DNA of 21,818 nt from a virus. The position numbers and the translations under genes were made by a program. The notes below the pieces were generated by a model. That model was not told the DNA's origin, searched no databases, and saw only the letters and a program-made list of their open reading frames with translations. Each line of letters begins with the position of its first letter. Position 1 is the stretch's first letter. Location: IMG/VR virus record IMGVR_UViG_3300017748_000169, positions 1-21,818 of that record. One strand, given 5' to 3'. Below, in pieces: positions 1 to 12,172 of the stretch.

Positions 1-3000
1 ACCTCTATTCCCAGAACCAATGATGCCAACATAAGTTCTTGCTGATACTCCATCTGCTCTTACATCTCCATCTGCAACACCAACTCCCAAATTTACACCA
101 CTAGCAAAACTCGCAGTTCCATCAGTTTTAAGAAAGAAGTCAGATGAGCGAGTACCACCGCCAAAGCCCATTCCGTATGCTGATACTGAGATGTTGCCTT
201 TTTGAGTGCCGTTTTTGTAGAAGGAAAAGATTGACCCATCTGTACCGTTTCTATTTAAAAATTGGACAGAATTGTCGGTCATTGATTGATAACTAACGCC
301 ATTTCCAAAAAGAACATGACCATCAGTATCAACTCCTGACGCACTTGTTCTACCCACCAAAAAATTACCATTCGTATCAAGAGATGCTCTAATTGAACTC
401 CCTGCATTTTTAAATACAAAATCTGTTGCTCTTAGAATCATTTGACCCCAAGAAGAAGAAGGGTTGTTGTATGCTCCTATTTGCCCTACAACATCAAGGT
501 TGCCACCCATTTGTGTATTACCAGATAGGTATAGGTCAGAGAATCTATTAGAAGGAGAACCTAATTGGACTGCACCGTCTCTCTGCGCTCCATTTGTGCC
601 TCTTGGTAGGACGGCATCAGAACTTTCGTTGAAGAGCAAGGTTGTATCACCTTTACCAATGTAAAGCTCATCGCCAGAAGTACCAATTCTACCTACGTTT
701 GTGCCGTCTTTGTAAAAGTACTGTATAACACCATCGCTACCTAAGCGATTTAAAAACAGAGGTGCTTCGTTAGTATTAGTTATATCTATCTCACCGCTAC
801 CAAAAACTGCTACCCCTGCTGTCCCAAATGATGCCGCAGTCTTACCCACGAGCAAATCACCGCCAGATGTGAGCCTTGCGCGTTCCTGATCGTTTGTATC
901 AAATATAATAGGTTGATTTTCACGTTGAGTAATTCTTGCCGCAACGGAATCATTACCTATAACAAAACCACCTGTAACTTGCGTTGTGTGAGTTGAATTA
1001 TTAAACGCAATGTATGTTTGAACTCCCCCATACAAACGAGCCACATATCCTGACGTAAGAAACCCACTGGGAGTTGTTCCGATACCAACGTTGCCTGATG
1101 AGTCTATTCTCATGCGCTCTACTGGCGATGCACTACTTGCAGATGTACCAAAACGTAATGAGTGATTATTTGCTGTGCTTTCAGCTACCGCATCAATAAA
1201 GGTTCCGCGAGTAGTAGTGTTCGTGCCAGACATCCAAAGCCTAACGCCTGTATTTGCATTGCCTACAGGATTTACCAAACTAGCAATTTGTGTTGTAGAG
1301 CCTGATGCTGTTTTAGAAACAGTAAGCCCTGTAGCACTCACGCTACCTGAGAAAACTGATGAGCCGTCATAAGCAATAGTAAGCGCATTACTTGCTGATA
1401 CATTAGGGGCGAAACTAAATTCACCAGCTCCTTCAGCATATCTTATTCGACCTTGAGCAGAACCAACATTATTGTAAAAATCAATATCTAAATTTTGAGC
1501 ATTGGTTGTAGATTCAATAGCAATTCCAGTTGCACCTGACCCTTTCAAATGTAGCGTTTTGTCTGGTGCAGTGGTGCTTCCCACCATTAATCCCCCATTG
1601 GGGATGTTGACGTTGCCTGTCCCTCCGATTGTCATCAGAGAATTACTGCCCTGCGTAAATGTAACATCTCTGCTATTCAACACAGTGTCAATGTCAAGAT
1701 TACCGCTTGCAGTTAATATGGTATTTGTTATTACATCTGTAAAACTATTGGCATCTACTACGCCATTTACAGTAAGCCCTGTGCTTGTCACGCTACCTGA
1801 GAATGTTGCGGCTCCATCACCCTGTAACTTTATTTTATTAACGCCTGCTGAATTTCTTACGACCAGTGCATTTTGTCCGTCTGTTTGCGATAAAATGCCA
1901 AAGTCTGCTGTACCGTCCTTATCTACCTTAATGCCCCAATCACTATTGTCATTAGTAACTAGAATGCCTGCATCACCAGTACGGCCGCCTGTGTAATCTA
2001 CAGTAAGCCCATCGGCTACAACTGAGCCACTGAACGTGGCGTTGCCTGATGAGTTGATTTCTAATTTTGTATCACCTGCAATATTAAATTTATAGTCGCT
2101 TGCAAACGCTATTATTTGCTTATAGGCAGATGCGGCTCTGTCATAACTAAATACTACATTTCTTGAATTGCTGTGTTGTGGATTTATTTCAAAACCAGTA
2201 TTACCACCATCGCTAACGACAAATTTACTACTTGGAGCAGTGGTAGCTCCGACCATTAAGCCACCGTTGGGGATGTTGACGTTATTAGACGAACTAAGCG
2301 TCATTTTGTCAGTTGTACCGTTTTGAGCAGTAAAGCGCATATCGTCTGCGCGTAGCTTAAAGATGCCTGAGTTTACTCGTATGTGGCTTGTGCCTGACGA
2401 GTAGAATAGTCCCATGTTGTTAGATGCACCAAACCTTGCTTCGCTACCATCTGAGAAAGTTGCAGTGGAGTTAAAGGCAGATGCACCATCTACAGTCAAC
2501 CCATCGGCTACAACTGAACCTGTTACGTCAATGCCTGTGGAGGTGGTGGCTATTTTGGCTACGTTGTCGTGATACAAAGTTACTGCTCCATCAGCAACAA
2601 AGTTGGCCATAGTTTCCGTAGCGCCTTTTTGAATGTAAACGCCAGCACCGCCTGATTCTAAAATTAACTGTCCAGTCCCTTGATCGCTTACCCAGCTATT
2701 AGAACCATCATGATAAATCTGTAAGTCTGATGAATCACCAAGAATAATTTTCCTACCATCGTTACCTTTAAAATTTAAACCATTAAATTCCCATTGATTA
2801 GCTCCAGCAGTTTGTATTCTTATAGTTCCTGTACCAGCATCATTAATGATAGAGTTAGAACCATCATGATAAATCTGTAAGTCATTACTAGCACCAAACT
2901 GTGCTTTGACGTTATCGCCTAGAGATAGGTTGCCTGTGAGTGTGCCGCCTGATAGGGGTAGGAATGAGCCTGTGCTACCCACTTCTACTATAGTAGGGTC

Positions 3001-3138
3001 ATTAGCAGTACCATTGTCTCTCTTGATAAACATTTTGCCATCAGCAGTGTTGATAGCGATTTCACCAAGTTCCAATTGGTTTAATGCTGGTTCATTTCCT
3101 GCGGTAGCTGAACGCTTGAGTTTAATCGTTTGTGCCAT
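1..3138 (-). CDS. Partial repeat-rich tail fibre or adhesin, C-terminus outside window
   Basis: I checked the frame codon by codon: it is open for 1046 codons from the ATG at 3138 to base 1, so the end of the protein lies beyond the window. A clear Shine-Dalgarno (AGGAG at 3149-3145, 6 nt from the ATG) supports the start. The first ~45 residues (MAQTIKLKRSATAG, then LGEIAINTADGKMFIKRDNG) resemble the N-terminal attachment domain seen in Mtd-type and many marine phage fibre proteins. The rest is low-complexity beta-type repeat: LQIYHDGSNS units, copies of VNIPNGGLMVG and of SVVADGLTVD, and VGIGTTPSG-like segments, typical of trimeric fibre shafts. Likely role: distal host-receptor fibre. It follows the 463-aa fibre by 38 bp. 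Sampled lines are 43-50% GC, higher than most neighbours. A C-terminal self-cleaving chaperone (peptidase S74) is common in such proteins but cannot be seen here. Confident it is a structural repeat protein; receptor binding is inference. Confidence 0.87.
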   Translation of the reverse strand, partial: MAQTIKLKRSATAGNEPALNQLELGEIAINTADGKMFIKRDNGTANDPTIVEVGSTGSFLPLSGGTLTGNLSLGDNVKAQFGASNDLQIYHDGSNSIINDAGTGTIRIQTAGANQWEFNGLNFKGNDGRKIILGDSSDLQIYHDGSNSWVSDQGTGQLILESGGAGVYIQKGATETMANFVADGAVTLYHDNVAKIATTSTGIDVTGSVVADGLTVDGASAFNSTATFSDGSEARFGASNNMGLFYSSGTSHIRVNSGIFKLRADDMRFTAQNGTTDKMTLSSSNNVNIPNGGLMVGATTAPSSKFVVSDGGNTGFEINPQHSNSRNVVFSYDRAASAYKQIIAFASDYKFNIAGDTKLEINSSGNATFSGSVVADGLTVDYTGGRTGDAGILVTNDNSDWGIKVDKDGTADFGILSQTDGQNALVVRNSAGVNKIKLQGDGAATFSGSVTSTGLTVNGVVDANSFTDVITNTILTASGNLDIDTVLNSRDVTFTQGSNSLMTIGGTGNVNIPNGGLMVGSTTAPDKTLHLKGSGATGIAIESTTNAQNLDIDFYNNVGSAQGRIRYAEGAGEFSFAPNVSASNALTIAYDGSSVFSGSVSATGLTVSKTASGSTTQIASLVNPVGNANTGVRLWMSGTNTTTRGTFIDAVAESTANNHSLRFGTSASSASPVERMRIDSSGNVGIGTTPSGFLTSGYVARLYGGVQTYIAFNNSTHTTQVTGGFVIGNDSVAARITQRENQPIIFDTNDQERARLTSGGDLLVGKTAASFGTAGVAVFGSGEIDITNTNEAPLFLNRLGSDGVIQYFYKDGTNVGRIGTSGDELYIGKGDTTLLFNESSDAVLPRGTNGAQRDGAVQLGSPSNRFSDLYLSGNTQMGGNLDVVGQIGAYNNPSSSWGQMILRATDFVFKNAGSSIRASLDTNGNFLVGRTSASGVDTDGHVLFGNGVSYQSMTDNSVQFLNRNGTDGSIFSFYKNGTQKGNISVSAYGMGFGGGTRSSDFFLKTDGTASFASGVNLGVGVADGDVRADGVSARTYVGIIGSGNRG
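1568..1614. repeat. 47-bp imperfect direct repeat, copy 1 (fibre gene)
   Basis: Matches 2237-2283 at 40 of 47 positions, including a 17-nt identical block at the high-coordinate end. It encodes the VNIPNGGLMVG unit of the long fibre. The copies are 669 nt (223 codons) apart, in frame. Confidence 0.8.
1996..2028. repeat. 33-bp imperfect direct repeat, copy 1 (fibre gene)
   Basis: Matches 2488-2520 at 30 of 33 positions, with 18 identical bases in a row. Encodes the VVADGLTVD unit of the long fibre; the copies are 164 codons apart, in frame. Confidence 0.75.
2237..2283. repeat. 47-bp imperfect direct repeat, copy 2 (fibre gene)
   Basis: Partner of 1568-1614. In both copies the following residues (TTAP after the shared unit) are also alike, so the repeated protein unit is a little longer than the DNA match. 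Confidence 0.8.
2488..2520. repeat. 33-bp imperfect direct repeat, copy 2 (fibre gene)
   Basis: Partner of 1996-2028. Weaker relatives of the same unit (AATGLTVS-like) occur at about 1318-1365 and 1771-1815, so this is a repeat family rather than a single pair. Confidence 0.75.
2699..2727. repeat. 29-bp perfect direct repeat, copy 1 (fibre gene)
   Basis: Identical to bases 2855-2883, 156 nt (52 codons) away and in the same reading frame. It encodes the LQIYHDGSNS unit of the long fibre. Perfect nucleotide identity between two copies of a protein repeat suggests recent duplication or gene conversion. Confidence 0.9.
2855..2883. repeat. 29-bp perfect direct repeat, copy 2 (fibre gene)
   Basis: Second copy of the repeat at 2699-2727. 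Both copies follow the same coding phase, so unequal crossing over between them would delete or add 52 codons without breaking the frame. Confidence 0.9.
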
Positions 3139-3153
3139 GTGGCTCTCCTATAT

Positions 3154-3165
3154 GCGTATGTACGC
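3154..3165. repeat. 12-bp near-palindrome between fibre genes
   Basis: GCGTA-TG-TACGC: two 5-bp arms around a 2-bp centre, in the 38-bp gap between the 463-aa fibre stop and the next Shine-Dalgarno. The centre is too short for a good RNA hairpin; it could be a protein-binding site or chance. Confidence 0.3.
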
Positions 3166-3176
3166 TAGAGATTTAT

Positions 3177-4568
3177 TTAGAATGTACCGCCATCAATTGC
3201 TATGTTTTCAACATTTAAAGGGGAAAGAGCATTTAAAGCCGTACCTACAGACCATCTATCTGTTGACTCATCCCAAACAAGATAAGCATTAGCTACTGTG
3301 CCTCTTTCAACTTCAAGACCTGCATCAGCACTTGGAGTACTTCCTGAATAGTCTTTGTTTAAAAGAAGAATATTATCTTTAAATACGACAGTTGTACTAT
3401 CTACAGTTGTTGTAGTACCTTGTACAGTAAGATCTCCAGTTATGATTACTGCATCATCAACAGTAACAGTTGCTCCGCTAGTAGATAAAGTATCTCCAGT
3501 TAAAGTAAAGTTTCCTAACTTACCATCTACATAACTTTTAACCGCACCTGTAGTAGATAAACTTGTATTGCTTGTACTTAATGATGTGCTTGTTTCTATA
3601 GAAGTAACACTTTGGCCTGTAGCAAAACCAACACCACTAGCAGTAACATATAGTTGAGCGCCTAAACTACCAATTTGAAAACTAATATCATCGTAACTTT
3701 GTCCTGAAGCAGGAACAATGTTCATCCCACTAACACCGTCATCGCCTCTTAGTGTTAAAGCCTCACCTTGTATTAATAAACCACCGCCTCCTACTTCTCT
3801 TATTTTTGCTGTACCAGAACCAGAAGTGTCATAGCTTATTTGTAAATTTTGAGAATTACTTGCACCAAACTGTATATTTTGGTTATCTCCCATTACAATA
3901 TTATTAGAACCAGATGCGTTTCCTGCCGCTAACGTAGCAGATAAAGTATTTGCAGAAGTAGTATCGCTCCAAGGAACGTTAACAACTAAGTTATCACTAC
4001 CGTCTACTTGAACTTTATATGTACGATTAGTAGTAGTTGTAGAATTTTGTGCGGCTTCAGAATTTGTTCCGTCAACATTGGCATTAAACGTAGTTCCAGA
4101 AAGACTAAGTCCTGTTCCTGCGGTGTACTGAGTATTTACCCAAGGTACGTTAACAACAGCTTGTTGAGAACTGTTAAGTTGAATACCATAAGTTCTTAAT
4201 GCCGTTGTAGTTACAGCATTGGCAGATGTAGATTGCGCTGTACCGTTGTATAATTTAATTCCACCTAATGCAGTAGTTGTTGCTACACCTTGTAAATAAC
4301 GACCATCAAGATCAACAGTTTCATCTAAGTTTGTACCAACCTGATTAATTTTTAATATACCAGTAGAGGTATTAAAACTAAGTCCGCCAGTTTCGATTGA
4401 TCGATCTGTAAAATACTTACCACCAATAGCATCTACATTAGAAGTAGTCCCCCCCGGTCTGCCAATCCACAATTTATTACTGCTTGCAGAATATGCTAAT
4501 TCAGCATTAGTAAGTGTAGTCGGAGCATCTGTACTTGTACTCTGTTTGATTGTGATTGTTTGTGCCAT
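3177..4568 (-). CDS. Tail fibre / virion structural protein (463 aa)
   Basis: A likely beta-rich fibre protein. The N-terminus (MAQTITIKQSTSTDAP, then NAELAYSASSNKLWIGRPG) is the same kind of attachment domain that starts the next gene. The middle carries two related blocks, each ending in VVNVPW (TYGIQLNSSQQAVVNVPW and TYKVQVDGSDNLVVNVPW), a motif I associate with structural proteins of marine T4-like cyanophages. The C-terminal part has the VTVDDAVIITGDLTVQG and TTTTVDSTTVV pattern followed by a WDESTDRW segment, again common in marine phage fibres, and the protein ends in IDGGTF. The start has GGAG 7 nt upstream. It sits 15 bp after the T7-gp17-like anchor, so it is probably a fibre segment joined to that anchor. 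Precise function and receptor are unknown. Confidence 0.8.
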   Translation of the reverse strand: MAQTITIKQSTSTDAPTTLTNAELAYSASSNKLWIGRPGGTTSNVDAIGGKYFTDRSIETGGLSFNTSTGILKINQVGTNLDETVDLDGRYLQGVATTTALGGIKLYNGTAQSTSANAVTTTALRTYGIQLNSSQQAVVNVPWVNTQYTAGTGLSLSGTTFNANVDGTNSEAAQNSTTTTNRTYKVQVDGSDNLVVNVPWSDTTSANTLSATLAAGNASGSNNIVMGDNQNIQFGASNSQNLQISYDTSGSGTAKIREVGGGGLLIQGEALTLRGDDGVSGMNIVPASGQSYDDISFQIGSLGAQLYVTASGVGFATGQSVTSIETSTSLSTSNTSLSTTGAVKSYVDGKLGNFTLTGDTLSTSGATVTVDDAVIITGDLTVQGTTTTVDSTTVVFKDNILLLNKDYSGSTPSADAGLEVERGTVANAYLVWDESTDRWSVGTALNALSPLNVENIAIDGGTF

Positions 4569-4583
4569 TTTCTTGCTCCGTGT

Positions 4584-5285
4584 TTAAAAGTTTCCACCCT
4601 CAAGGGTTGATGTGTTATTTAAATAATTACTATCATTATTAAATTGTGAGATTGCTCCACTTACATTAGATAGTACTCGTGTTGCATTAATAAACGTTGT
4701 GCCTCCAGCCGCATACCCAACAGTATTGTTTAACAAACCTGTCATTGTATCGCCTGTTTTTTCTACAAATCCTGATCCAGAAAATGACTGCGCGGCTACT
4801 GGCTCACCTGTAACTGAGTCAAATCCTAAAAACTTACCTTTACGACTATCCTTTAAAGGTAGCTCCATACTTCCAGAAGCTACATCTTCATCTTTTAATC
4901 TTAATGATCGATTGATCGCAGTTTGTTGTTGATTAGTTGCAAGCCATAATCTATCGTAATCATTGTTTACTTCATTAGCTAAGAACGCACCGTTAGCTTG
5001 ATATGCTGTATCTCTGTCTAAATCCATAGACATGAGTATGTTTATTGTTGTACCCTGTGTAGGGAAGATAGGATTGTTGTTACTATCTACTAATGTAAAT
5101 GTAATAGTACCGCCTGATCCTACTCCTACATTTTGTACTGTGTAGTGTGTATTTAAGGTTTGTACAACACCACCCAATAAAACGGTAACGTCTGTAGCAT
5201 CGTTTAACTGGAACGTGTAGCTATACACATTTTGATTATTTCCTGCGGTATAATCGTTCCTAGTAGTGTTTGCTGTTACTGTCAT
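4584..5285 (-). CDS. T7 gp17-like tail fibre anchor protein (233 aa)
   Basis: The first ~150 residues match the N-terminal phage T7 tail fibre family, which attaches the fibre to the tail: an early YSYTFQLNDATDVTVLLGG strand pair, YTVQNVGVGSGGTITF, INILMSMDLDRDTAYQANGA and then NEVNNDYDRLWLATNQQQ with an INRSLRL segment. At 233 aa it is far shorter than T7 gp17 (553 aa): the receptor-binding part is missing, consistent with a short adaptor to which separate fibre proteins attach. The tail GSGFVEKTGDTMTGLLNN resembles fibre-shaft repeats, and the protein ends in LEGGNF, like the GGTF end of the next gene. A good Shine-Dalgarno (GAGG, 6 nt from the ATG) supports the start. It follows the 788-aa ejection protein by 40 bp, with a TATAAT in the gap. 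Confidence 0.88.
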   Translation of the reverse strand: MTVTANTTRNDYTAGNNQNVYSYTFQLNDATDVTVLLGGVVQTLNTHYTVQNVGVGSGGTITFTLVDSNNNPIFPTQGTTINILMSMDLDRDTAYQANGAFLANEVNNDYDRLWLATNQQQTAINRSLRLKDEDVASGSMELPLKDSRKGKFLGFDSVTGEPVAAQSFSGSGFVEKTGDTMTGLLNNTVGYAAGGTTFINATRVLSNVSGAISQFNNDSNYLNNTSTLEGGNF

Positions 5286-5325: not shown

Positions 5326-7692
5326 TTATAAATCTTCCAAAACTTCCATTGGAGTTTCTGCTGGAGCCCACCAATACTCTTGACCAAACTCTTCATAACG
5401 TTTTGTTCTAATTCTATTTAATGATGATTGATAGTCTGGATCAGCCATTAACCTAATATTATCGAACATTGAATTCATAAATAATTGTATTTGCCACGGA
5501 TCAGGAGCTATGTCTTTAATAAACTTAGCAGACTCACCAAGCACATTTGTTTCATCGCCTGTAACTGCTTCTCTAATATTTCCAATTGTTAATTTATAAG
5601 TGTCGTTAGTAAGACTTGCCATTGGACCTAACAGTGTTTCAACAAATCCGCGACCATATTTATTAACGTCTGATACTACATAATCAGCAAACAAACTACC
5701 TGAACCACCTTGCACAAAAGCAGTAACCCAATCTTCTGGATCGTCCATTGGTCTAGGTTCTCGACCAGCCGCTAAATCTTTTATTTGTAATGCAAATGCA
5801 CCCATTAAAGTTGTTGCTGTAGCAAATGACCCTAAATACATCATTTTACCGCCTGTAGTTGCTTGTGTTGCTCCACGGTATAAATGAGTTGTAGCAATAG
5901 TAATAGGGAATGATTTAATCATCATAGCTGATCGTGAAATTTGGCCCCAAATTGTACCTCTTTCTGTTCCTCCAGTAGCAATTGCTCTTACTCTTGCATC
6001 AGGAGTAGGTACTGCATAATCTGTTTCTGACAAAATCATAGAATGAAATTTCATGCTTTCATCTTTAGTTAAGTCAGCAAACTTAGAGCCACGCAAATCT
6101 AATGGCTTAGTTGCTCTAAAATTATCCCATTCTGCTTTTGTAATTTGATAGTTTTTAAATGCACTTTGTATAACAGGATCAAGCTCATCAAATGTTTTTG
6201 CAAAATTGTCAGATAACATTCCAGCAAATTCCATTCCAAATGCTTTACGGCCTCCTTCAGTCCATGCTTCTAACCCTGAAAATCTTAATACAGCTTCAGC
6301 AGTTTTTGCACTTGCTCCAGTTCCATAAGTATCAGAAAATCTATTTGCAGAATGAGCGCGTCCAAACCACCCATCAAATATTAATCCCATTCTAGCCGCA
6401 AAAATTCTATCTTCTTCATTAGCAGGATTCATTAATTTCATCTGTCTAGCAAATACTTTAGCAACAGGAATTTTATTGTAATTAGCAGTTAATGCTGTTG
6501 TAGCTAAATCAGTTACAGAAGACAATGTTGCGCCACCAAGTTTAGATGCTACTTGAATATTACGTACAAATTGTAATCCATCAGCTAAAGTAACTAACTC
6601 ACCGTTGTTAATATCACCACTTACTGTTTTATAAACAGCATTTAATGTAGCTTTAGTTCTATCTTTAACAATTTTATTTTTAGATATTTCTAACTTTTCT
6701 GCTTCTGTTTTTAAAATTTCAAATGTTTGTTTTGGATTAGTTCCAAACACACGCATTAAAGCCGTATCATTACCCATAGCCTGTATATGATCTGTAAGGG
6801 TAGTTAATATGTCACCCTTACCAAATTCATTTTGATAGGCCATCCAAGATTCTGCATCTTTAAAATATAAAAATCTTTTTTCAGAACCTTTGCGAGATAA
6901 TTTAGTGCCTAGGTTGCGAATAGTAAAATCTTTAGCCTTATTAAGACCACCTGTAGATATAGTTTGATATACATACTTTAATGAATCTTCAAAATTAGCA
7001 TTAGATAGCACTCGACCTTTATCATCTACCATTTGATTTCGATCTAACTTGTCAATTATAAATGCGCGCCAATCTTCATATTTAACAGCGCGGACTCTTC
7101 TTAAATCATGTGCTTGAGGTAATAAGAATTTTTCGTTTTTAGAAATACTGCCGCCCATCACATTAAATTCATCACGCATATCGTCAACAAGTTTTAACCA
7201 ATTACTTGCAGATTTGGTAATTTCTGCATCATCAATAGTTTCACCATATACAGCGCGTATAAATTTATTTAACCCTTCTTCGTCTTGAGACAAACCGAAC
7301 ATTCTTGTTCTAAACATAGATAAAGAATCAGACCATTTAGCCATATATTTTTTTGTATAAGCTTTACCAAGCATATCTACATTAAGATAACTTGCCTTGC
7401 CGCTTATGTCTTTTACCATTAATGACATTAATCCAGTCATTGCATTATTAGAGCCATGCTTTTGAATGTTATCGAAAGCATCTGCAATACGTATAGATTG
7501 AATAGCTTTTTCTCGTTTTTCTCTTGAAATATTTTTAACTAAATTAGAAATAGCATCTTCTGGACTATCAGCCTTTAATATTTCTTGGCCCATTGATTTA
7601 GATATTTTTCCAGCTTGCACAGCAACATCAATACATTTGCTATATTTACCGTGAAGTGGATCTAATTGTTTAGGTGATTTAGCCAAGCGCAC
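5326..7692 (-). CDS. Large ejection protein, gp16-like C-terminal part (788 aa)
   Basis: The C-terminal ~170 residues follow a pattern I recognise from large internal (DNA-ejection) virion proteins of podovirus-type phages and prophages: a Gly/Ala-rich hydrophobic segment from ~617, AAGREPRPMDDP at ~641-652, FVQGGSGSLFADYVVSD from ~659, a LLGP segment at ~687, LMADPDYQSSLNRIRTKRYE from ~748, and the terminal EYWWAPAETP. The N-terminal two thirds is mostly helical. The start is a GTG at 7692 with GAGG 4 nt upstream, overlapping the end of the 545-aa gene by 14 nt; the next in-frame Met is residue 34. There is an in-frame TGA just upstream of the GTG, so the gene cannot extend further. Together with the preceding protein it totals 1333 residues, close to T7 gp16 (1318), so the two probably form one functional ejection protein. 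Expected to be packaged in the capsid and moved into the cell envelope at infection. Confidence 0.78.
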   Translation of the reverse strand: MRLAKSPKQLDPLHGKYSKCIDVAVQAGKISKSMGQEILKADSPEDAISNLVKNISREKREKAIQSIRIADAFDNIQKHGSNNAMTGLMSLMVKDISGKASYLNVDMLGKAYTKKYMAKWSDSLSMFRTRMFGLSQDEEGLNKFIRAVYGETIDDAEITKSASNWLKLVDDMRDEFNVMGGSISKNEKFLLPQAHDLRRVRAVKYEDWRAFIIDKLDRNQMVDDKGRVLSNANFEDSLKYVYQTISTGGLNKAKDFTIRNLGTKLSRKGSEKRFLYFKDAESWMAYQNEFGKGDILTTLTDHIQAMGNDTALMRVFGTNPKQTFEILKTEAEKLEISKNKIVKDRTKATLNAVYKTVSGDINNGELVTLADGLQFVRNIQVASKLGGATLSSVTDLATTALTANYNKIPVAKVFARQMKLMNPANEEDRIFAARMGLIFDGWFGRAHSANRFSDTYGTGASAKTAEAVLRFSGLEAWTEGGRKAFGMEFAGMLSDNFAKTFDELDPVIQSAFKNYQITKAEWDNFRATKPLDLRGSKFADLTKDESMKFHSMILSETDYAVPTPDARVRAIATGGTERGTIWGQISRSAMMIKSFPITIATTHLYRGATQATTGGKMMYLGSFATATTLMGAFALQIKDLAAGREPRPMDDPEDWVTAFVQGGSGSLFADYVVSDVNKYGRGFVETLLGPMASLTNDTYKLTIGNIREAVTGDETNVLGESAKFIKDIAPDPWQIQLFMNSMFDNIRLMADPDYQSSLNRIRTKRYEEFGQEYWWAPAETPMEVLEDL

Positions 7693-9316
7693 ATACCCTC
7701 ACTGATTCAATTCCTTCTATCTGATCATCTAATGATTTCATATATTCATCACCGTCTATTAATTTTCCATCAACTAATACACGCCTAATTTCTTGTGCTT
7801 CAAAATCAGCAATATCTCTATTGTAATTAGCAGACAATCCTTCAAAATCTAATTGTTCTTTTTGCAAACTTGTTTTAGTTGCTATAGGAGCAGGAGGCAA
7901 TTGGCTGACAACATAATCATCATAAGTTAATGTTGGACCATTCATTTGATTTTCAAATTCTTTGTTTTGTCTAAAAATGTCCATATCTTTTTCAACATTA
8001 CTACGAATAACTTGGCCGTAATATTCTTCTAAAACAGTATTCTCATTAGACAACTCATTAATATGCATATTAATGTTATCAATTTCAACTTGTGCAGTAG
8101 GGTCTTTTAACATTTTAGGATTTCTAATAATGCTATCAAGCAAATCAATAGCATCATTCATATCCATAGCATCATAACCAACTTCACGCAATCTCTCAGC
8201 AAGCAAATCTGGTGAATAACCGCCAGTTTTCCTAAATACAGGCTTACCAAAACCCCCTGCAATTTTTTGCATATCAGCTATGTCGAATCCTGCTTCATTA
8301 GCTAATTGTTGTCTATTAACTCCACCATTTTCAGCAATCCATCTTGCCCAAGTTTCATTTTCTTTTTTAATAGTAGTTATTTTTTTTTCTAATTTAACTA
8401 TAGTTGCATCTCTAGCATCTTCTAGTTTTACATACTCTTTGTTTTGAAATGCATCATATTCTTTTAAAATATCATCTTCTATTCGAGCAGGTAATGCCGC
8501 TTTTTGTTCAGCTAGTTGTGTACCCATCCTGTCTAAAATGTTTATTGATTCTTGCTCTGGGGTTAACCTAACCTCAGCATTAATTTTATCAGTCGGCTTA
8601 GGAGGGCCAACAAACTCTGACGCATTCTTAGAAAGGTTTCTAAAGTATCCAGAAATCCCACCTACTGCCCCACCAAGAAGCCCTGCACCTATAGCTGTAG
8701 TGCCAATAGCCATTAAAGCATCTTCAAACTCATAAGGTGAATTAATGTCGTGCTTGTGCTTATATACCAGTGGTTGAATAGCAGACTCAGAGGCTAAGGC
8801 AATAGCGGCTGTGTTTCTACCTGTCATTAATGCTTGGCTTAATGTACTCATCCCTTTGTAAGCAGTACCTACACCTATACCCATAGTAGCTACGTTAATA
8901 GGATCAAGCATATAACCACCCATGCTTCCTAAAAACTGTGCAAATCCATTGCCACGCTCTATAACATCTTGGTTTTCTTCTCTGCGCTTGCGTAGTATTT
9001 CTGTGCGTTCGTCATACAATTCACGGTTAGTTTTTATAAAGCCTGTATCTTCAGCTAATCTGTCATAATCAAGTTCACCAGTAATATCCGTATAAGGGTT
9101 TAAATCAAAACCCTCGTTAGACATTTTAAATATTTGTTGATTTCTGTCGTCATATCCCTGACGATTTAACAAACTAGAAACAGATAACTCTTCGTCTATA
9201 ACAAAACCAAACGCTGAACTCATAGTCTCAAAAAAAGTAGGGTCTTCACGAAACTCTTGTGGGCCAAGCAAATTCTGATAATAATCGCGCTGATCTTGAT
9301 TAGAAAGAATTGGCAT
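7679..9316 (-). CDS. Ejection protein, gp16-like N-terminal part (545 aa)
   Basis: Probable internal virion protein. The acidic N-terminus is followed by two Gly/Ala-rich hydrophobic segments at about residues 128-152 (FLGSMGGYMLDPINVATMGI) and 198-225 (ALMAIGTTAIGAGLLGGAVG). The GS-x-LDP-N element is a pattern I associate with large podovirus ejection proteins. Charged coiled-coil-like helix follows at ~260-330. I see no lytic transglycosylase motif like the one at the N-terminus of T7 gp16, so wall-degrading activity is either missing or elsewhere. The ATG overlaps the stop of the 686-aa gene by one base (TAATG). The last nine codons overlap the GTG start of the 788-aa gene in another frame, and the predicted C-terminus (VRVCALG) looks arbitrary, consistent with a split gene. 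Assignment rests on context, composition and the hydrophobic segments. Confidence 0.68.
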   Translation of the reverse strand: MPILSNQDQRDYYQNLLGPQEFREDPTFFETMSSAFGFVIDEELSVSSLLNRQGYDDRNQQIFKMSNEGFDLNPYTDITGELDYDRLAEDTGFIKTNRELYDERTEILRKRREENQDVIERGNGFAQFLGSMGGYMLDPINVATMGIGVGTAYKGMSTLSQALMTGRNTAAIALASESAIQPLVYKHKHDINSPYEFEDALMAIGTTAIGAGLLGGAVGGISGYFRNLSKNASEFVGPPKPTDKINAEVRLTPEQESINILDRMGTQLAEQKAALPARIEDDILKEYDAFQNKEYVKLEDARDATIVKLEKKITTIKKENETWARWIAENGGVNRQQLANEAGFDIADMQKIAGGFGKPVFRKTGGYSPDLLAERLREVGYDAMDMNDAIDLLDSIIRNPKMLKDPTAQVEIDNINMHINELSNENTVLEEYYGQVIRSNVEKDMDIFRQNKEFENQMNGPTLTYDDYVVSQLPPAPIATKTSLQKEQLDFEGLSANYNRDIADFEAQEIRRVLVDGKLIDGDEYMKSLDDQIEGIESVRVCALG

Positions 9317-11794: not shown

Positions 11795-12172
11795 CTAAAT
11801 ATCCTCTGGCTCTAACAAAGCCTTTTCTATCTCGTCTATATCAGTTAAATGTGTAGGATGATATGTAATCCAAACACAGTCTGTTTCAGCGTATATAACA
11901 CGCTTAGTTTGCGGAATAGTTTCTCCCATAAACGGAGCTTCTATATCCATGTTTCCAAATTGGCTAGATACTTTACATCTGCCTTTTACTACCATGTACA
12001 AGTGTGTAGTTTTGTGTAAAGCTCCTACCAAACATACGCCAGCAGGAATAAATAACTCTCTTGCATACAATCCATCGCTAAAATGATGTTTTGTTTCTAA
12101 CTCTATTGTGTCTCCTTTTAACATAAGAGACTGTAATTTTATAATATCATCTTGCGCTGTTACTTCATTCAC
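11795..12172 (-). CDS. Cupin-like phage protein between nozzle and ejection genes (125 aa)
   Basis: Looks like a single small beta-barrel of the cupin type. HHFSDGLYARELFIPAG (~29-45) leads into VGALHKTTHLYMVVKGR (~49-65), where His53 and His57 could bind a metal, then a strand pair, IEAPFMGETIPQTKRVIYAE (~77-96) and DCVWITYHPT (~98-107, His105), ending in an acidic helix. I recall similar proteins next to tail genes in many podovirus-type phages, without a known activity. The start is a GTG overlapping the nozzle stop (GTGA); the nearby ATG at 12168 runs into a stop after two codons, so GTG is the only sensible start. Context suggests a virion or assembly role; an enzymatic activity (for example an oxygenase) cannot be claimed. 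Confidence 0.7.
   Translation of the reverse strand: MNEVTAQDDIIKLQSLMLKGDTIELETKHHFSDGLYARELFIPAGVCLVGALHKTTHLYMVVKGRCKVSSQFGNMDIEAPFMGETIPQTKRVIYAETDCVWITYHPTHLTDIDEIEKALLEPEDI

Follow-up and report, generated by a model that had tools for sequence, protein, structure and literature searches.

A probable three-segment tail fibre with gp36:gp37-type joints encoded by a T7-like phage genome fragment

Three consecutive genes at the end of a T7-like structural module very probably encode a linear tail fibre of three segments, held together by two plug-and-socket joints of the kind formed by gp36 and gp37 of phage T4. In this proposal, drawn from sequence comparison and from analogy with T4, the three genes would encode one fibre in three pieces, of which the first (the anchor) would fix it to the short tail through its N-terminal domain; the LEGGNF tail of the anchor would plug into the N-terminal socket of the 463-aa middle segment, and the IDGGTF tail of the middle segment would in turn enter a homologous socket with which the long distal segment begins. 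There the chain would stop, because the distal segment probably has a self-folding S74 end and no plug. We term the C-terminal motif plug and the start domain socket on the strength of the parallel with gp36 and gp37, since in T4 trimeric gp36 is known to bind gp37 at its N-terminal region (review, PMC3004832). A modular chain joined C-terminus to N-terminus, as put forward by an initial annotation, is supported by sequence comparison, homology to the T4 joint included; we infer that plug and socket touch, and the segments are presumably trimers.

The stretch of DNA analysed here (the window), a fragment of a viral contig, spans 21.8 kb (IMG/VR record IMGVR_UViG_3300017748_000169, positions 1 to 21,818) and has all its structural genes on the minus strand. 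Their order is T7-like, with a putative terminase first and then the portal, head, tail and internal virion proteins, and the PHROG matches (connector, head, tail including tail tubular protein B, and internal virion proteins) follow this order as well; with a portal matching PF12236 at E 4.5e-80, the module is of the T7-type short-tailed kind. According to the ORF calls, the last three genes of the module are those of the anchor, the middle fibre and the long fibre (Table 1). Their translations reproduce exactly the LEGGNF end of the 233-aa anchor and the IDGGTF end of the 463-aa fibre given in that annotation, and the MAQTI start that it had noted on the 463-aa and long fibres belongs to a common N-terminal domain of ~50 aa. 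PHROG hits of the three fibre proteins are only to generic tail and fibre families. Elsewhere in the window, two internal-virion-protein-like genes of 545 and 788 aa (5326-9316) overlap by 14 bp and differ in size in relatives, and a 125-aa gene (11795-12172) is 96% identical to its counterpart in the related locus L062, most neighbouring proteins being 37-77% identical, a pattern that suggests recent exchange or strong constraint.

Table 1 Features of the predicted fibre module, in window coordinates
Feature	Position	Strand	Basis and remarks
Anchor protein, 233 aa	4584..5285	-	ORF; ends STLEGGNF; putative base-of-fibre tail-attachment segment
Anchor tail-attaching domain, aa 1-128	4902..5285	-	Dpo31 match
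Plug 1, anchor C-terminal LEGGNF (joint 1)	4587..4604	-	Kept in relatives and on unrelated proteins in the anchor position
Middle fibre segment, 463 aa	3177..4568	-	ORF; starts MAQTITIK, ends NIAIDGGTF; three-gene order recurs
Socket 1, middle-segment N-terminal domain, aa 1-55	4404..4568	-	Alignments; clade of middle-type sockets
Plug 2, middle-segment C-terminal IDGGTF (joint 2)	3180..3197	-	Ending on 44/45 distinct middle genes
Middle-long spacer with pyrimidine tract, hairpin and Shine-Dalgarno	3139..3176	-	
Hairpin GCGT-ACAT-ACGC, before long-gene Shine-Dalgarno	3154..3165	-	50/54 distinct joint-2 spacers; covarying stem
Long distal fibre, >1046 aa, starts MAQTIKLK	1..3138	-	ORF open at window edge
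Socket 2, long-fibre N-terminal domain, aa 1-55	2974..3138	-	Homologous to T4-type gp37 N-terminus (tblastn, hhalign)

The anchor is most clearly related to a known tail-attaching domain. Its residues 1-129 match the tail protein family phrog_1640 (E 8.7e-18), and its profile matches residues 1-128 of Dpo31 (PDB 28lx/8ck1, E 8.3e-23), the tail spike of the marine podovirus Carin-1, whose N-terminal domain attaches to the tail (PMC13317679); anchor residues 1-128 are thus a Dpo31-type tail-attaching N-terminus. The annotation had described the anchor as gp17-like. An hhalign comparison with the N-terminus of T7 gp17 is colinear from the start at E 0.17, and the gp17 domain PF03906 has no match in the anchor, nor in the controls, so that a likeness to gp17 is only suggested and the clear relative is the N-terminus of Dpo31.

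We chose 80 viral loci by one criterion only, a match to the 60 N-terminal residues encoded by the long gene; a single long-fibre start served as the query because an alignment of mixed start domains proved too diverse for scanning the collection. Duplicates were removed before counting, genes were taken as the longest non-overlapping ORFs without curation, and loci L178-L241, from a DNA-pattern scan, were excluded from the counts because they had been chosen with the motif itself. The motif scored was a D-x-G-x-aromatic C-terminus, written as [DEN][GAFY]G-x-[FY](S). Among 45 distinct genes directly before the long gene, 44 end in it (the remaining one ends IDGGTFPDNV), as do 38 of 42 genes one place further up, in the anchor position (the other four end in the close variants QGGTF, DAGSYF, SGGTF and IGGTF), while none of the 31 complete long genes and only 2 of the 316 other genes of the same loci end in it, counts which are not independent trials since the loci are related to varying degrees. 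The motif is paired with a socket at the start of the next gene, is absent from the last gene, and recurs with unrelated anchors. Its codons vary synonymously between loci, indicating that selection acts on the peptide and not on the DNA. The collection leans to marine samples. The contigs that hold these loci vary widely in size and gene content, one of them measuring 281 kb, and the first genes belong to many unrelated kinds; across all loci retrieved, including some selected with the motif, there are 70 three-gene chains. The open-access literature, when searched for a D-x-G-x-aromatic ending, returned nothing relevant.

The closest relatives of the window have the same three genes in succession, with anchors ending in (L/I)(E/D)(G/A)GNF or DGENF, middle proteins ending in (I/L)(D/N)GG(T/S)F, and a MAQTI or MAQTM start on both genes after the anchor. 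Among anchors that are otherwise unrelated and come from unrelated phages, the C-terminus is the sole common part; the 132-aa anchor-position protein of locus L101, for example, has only its last 22 residues in common with the window anchor, at 64% identity. The chain may also be longer, as in locus L155, with four genes encoding 71 aa (NGGSY), 110 aa (SGGTF), 689 aa (DGGSF) and 528 aa, and in the cultured Zobellviridae phages L242 and L243, which have four-gene chains too.

Complete relatives of the long fibre measure 1113-1391 aa. The annotation had asked whether the long gene might itself end in GG(N/T)F beyond the window edge; in the close relatives L058, L062 and L065, where the gene is complete, this ending is absent and a Peptidase_S74 chaperone region stands in its place. 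Judging from these relatives, the terminal segment is one without a plug. Their long fibres carry two S74-type tails, ending ...LRQRVAQLEE or ...SELLAFIISAI (L058 and L062 versus L065), which suggests swaps of the distal end.

The start of the long gene matches the gp37 N-terminus of T-even phages by tblastn, and hhalign aligns it with that of T4 gp37 over 48 columns at 46% identity (prob 98.3, E 1.9e-14). Both sides of a gp36:gp37-type joint are consequently present in the window: a gp37-type N-terminal domain downstream, and upstream a preceding gene ending in D-x-G-x-aromatic, with E in first place in LEGGNF. All eight T4-type gp36 proteins found before such a gp37 end in DFGYY, DFGSY, DYGTY or DFGTF, sometimes followed by S (in general D[FY]G[YST][FY](S)), and the trailing serine is also seen in the marine set; two annotated gp36-like proteins that precede a gene without that start domain lack the ending. 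We take the D-x-G-x-aromatic ending to be the likely defining mark of this type of joint. In some T4-like cyanophage contigs, D-G-G-T-Y endings are followed by an unrelated small gene, which counts against the joint reading. The start domain also resembles Mtd_N (PF18454), with matches from 9 of 19 aligned members (best E 4.8e-8) and none from the window long-fibre start alone, and in phage BPP-1 the gene before mtd has no plug, so that a domain of the Mtd_N type can be used without one. Sequence searches found no solved structure of gp36, of the gp37 start or of any such plug-socket joint. Single-chain AlphaFold2 models had a mean pLDDT of 45 for the anchor and 51 for the middle segment, too poor to support fold searches, which is no surprise for trimeric fibres whose alignments are thin.

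In fibres, trimer folding commonly starts from C-terminal residues. The motif might on that account cap or register the trimer, or aid folding, with no contact to the next protein, the socket being an unrelated common fibre start and the clustering of fibre genes explaining the co-occurrence; the Mtd_N-type domain that does without a plugged partner in BPP-1 would fit this as well. We consider it unlikely, because the last segment has the same start and never ends in the motif, because the single-gene fibres of sister phages are without it, and because the motif tracks a following socket gene and resembles the gp36 ending found before gp37 in T4-type phages. These sister phages (L072-L083) have the anchor domain joined directly to a single long fibre of about 950-1660 aa, which lacks a terminal plug and is not followed by a socket gene. 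S74 was detected in both of the fused fibres scanned, and parts of the fused proteins can be aligned to the long and middle proteins that are encoded separately elsewhere; the single-gene fibre and the three-gene set thus look like alternative encodings of the same appendage.

The two joints of the putative chain differ from each other. Most anchor plugs read D-A-G-(A/N)-F, and the usual middle plug is D-G-G-(T/S)-F: A occupies position -4 in 31 of 38 anchors and 0 of 44 middle proteins, and one of A, N and G occupies position -2 in the same proportions (31/38 vs 0/44; Fisher 3e-16 in either case, uncorrected for relatedness), the window anchor having G at -4 and N at -2. In a tree from a short alignment with many unresolved forks, 54 of 57 middle sockets form a well-supported group separate from the long-fibre sockets. 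Two plug and socket classes fit, but do not prove, an address code that would keep the segments in order. The annotation had suggested interchangeable joints. Within one phage this does not simply hold, as across relatives the plugs are mostly of different classes and the sockets of different clades; between phages exchange does seem to occur. In locus L011, the long-fibre start is 98% identical to that of the window over 60 residues, and the middle and long fibres are its only detectable protein matches to the window, structural genes included. The joint appears, from such comparisons, to recur across unrelated marine phages, both reused and swapped.

These classes also bear on a branched arrangement, in which the middle and long proteins would be separate fibres, both seated on the anchor or on the tail and perhaps addressing two receptors. 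The start domain that they have in common could mean a shared attachment site. Branched receptor-binding devices made of several separately encoded proteins do exist, for example in Klebsiella phages (PMC6872550). Those of Klebsiella podophages resemble the proposed fibre in having separate receptor-binding proteins that assemble on an anchor via short conserved docking peptides; they differ in being branched depolymerase systems, while in the window the peptide lies at the C-terminal end of the upstream segment and the layout looks linear. We regard two separate fibres as very improbable, since the two start domains fall mostly into different clades matched with different plug classes, the middle protein has an end plug that would be needless on a free distal tip, and the gene before the long gene, in loci picked by the long-gene start, is almost always of the middle type and not an anchor.

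At joint 2, the putative linear chain is accompanied by an RNA feature. The 38-bp spacer before the long gene holds a hairpin of GCG/CGC around TACATA. Such a hairpin, at the same position in L098-L177 and with a centre of TA(T/C/A)ATA, occurs in 50 of the 54 distinct spacers of joint 2, compared with 11 among 422 spacers elsewhere. The stem shows covariation (20 double-change cells vs 4.3 in shuffles, 0/500), and no Rfam family matches it. The pyrimidine tract upstream of the hairpin is more complementary to the Shine-Dalgarno than shuffled tracts are, own pairs being not clearly better than swapped ones (p 0.087). At joint 1 plug and socket are paired without a hairpin, three nominal hits there looking like misfiled joint-2 spacers. 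A possible role of the hairpin is translational coupling between the middle and the long segment. A similar hairpin (TCT-TATATA-AGA) lies in the T4-like cyanophage contigs L022, L025, L033 and L035 directly before a gene starting MAAKFLVKRSS, which has the same type of start domain, and proteins nearby end in D-G-G-T-Y. That the junction is kept as DNA or RNA, as a recombination site or a regulatory element spanning stop, hairpin and start with the peptide ends as by-products, is hardly credible, since the strong conservation of the hairpin and the sharing of the long fibre among unrelated phages are set against plug codons that vary synonymously, a joint 1 that lacks the hairpin, and T4-type phages whose plug and socket are separated by a gap of mostly 8-9 bp, again with no such hairpin.

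The proposed three-segment chain has precedents for its parts. With T4 and other Straboviridae it has in common an upstream D-x-G-x-aromatic end and a homologous downstream socket in adjacent genes of the same order; it differs in that the joint would be used twice in succession, in a short-tailed phage of T7 order and starting from a small tail-attached anchor, in that a gp34/gp35 knee was not apparent, and in that the plug reads D/E-G-G-(N/T)-F where T4 has D-F-G-Y-Y. The cultured Zobellviridae Vibrio phages 1.293.O and 1.208.B similarly have adjacent short proteins ending in D/N-G-G-x-(F/Y), followed by a segment of the MAQTI type with DGGSF at its end and by a long protein of the MSQTI/MAQTI type, but with four genes, two short N-terminal segments and other anchor sequences. 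Dpo31 of Carin-1 resembles the window in the tail-attaching region, which is homologous to anchor residues 1-128, and differs in that one protein of 828 aa makes up the spike, depolymerase included, with no separate segments. Mtd of BPP-1 (Mtd_N) has a start domain of the same broad family and differs in the unplugged gene before it.

A wider reading, which we offer tentatively and hold to be somewhat doubtful, is that several unrelated marine phage lineages have in common a portable, ordered fibre kit. In such a kit, class-1 plugs (D-A/G-G-A/N-F) would enter class-1 sockets between anchor and middle and class-2 plugs (D-G-G-T/S-F) class-2 sockets between middle and distal segments; the order would be written in the last residues, distal fibres would be swappable, and the RNA hairpin would tie distal to middle translation.

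A resemblance of six residues would thereby become a general rule for building phage fibres from separate genes, with a testable form: a C-terminal plug on all segments but the last and a start socket on all but the first. The rule would link the gp36:gp37 joint of T4 to a widespread marine system and would identify which adjoining 'hypothetical' proteins form one fibre, and in which order. The joint also suggests a reason for the movement of distal fibres between unrelated phages.
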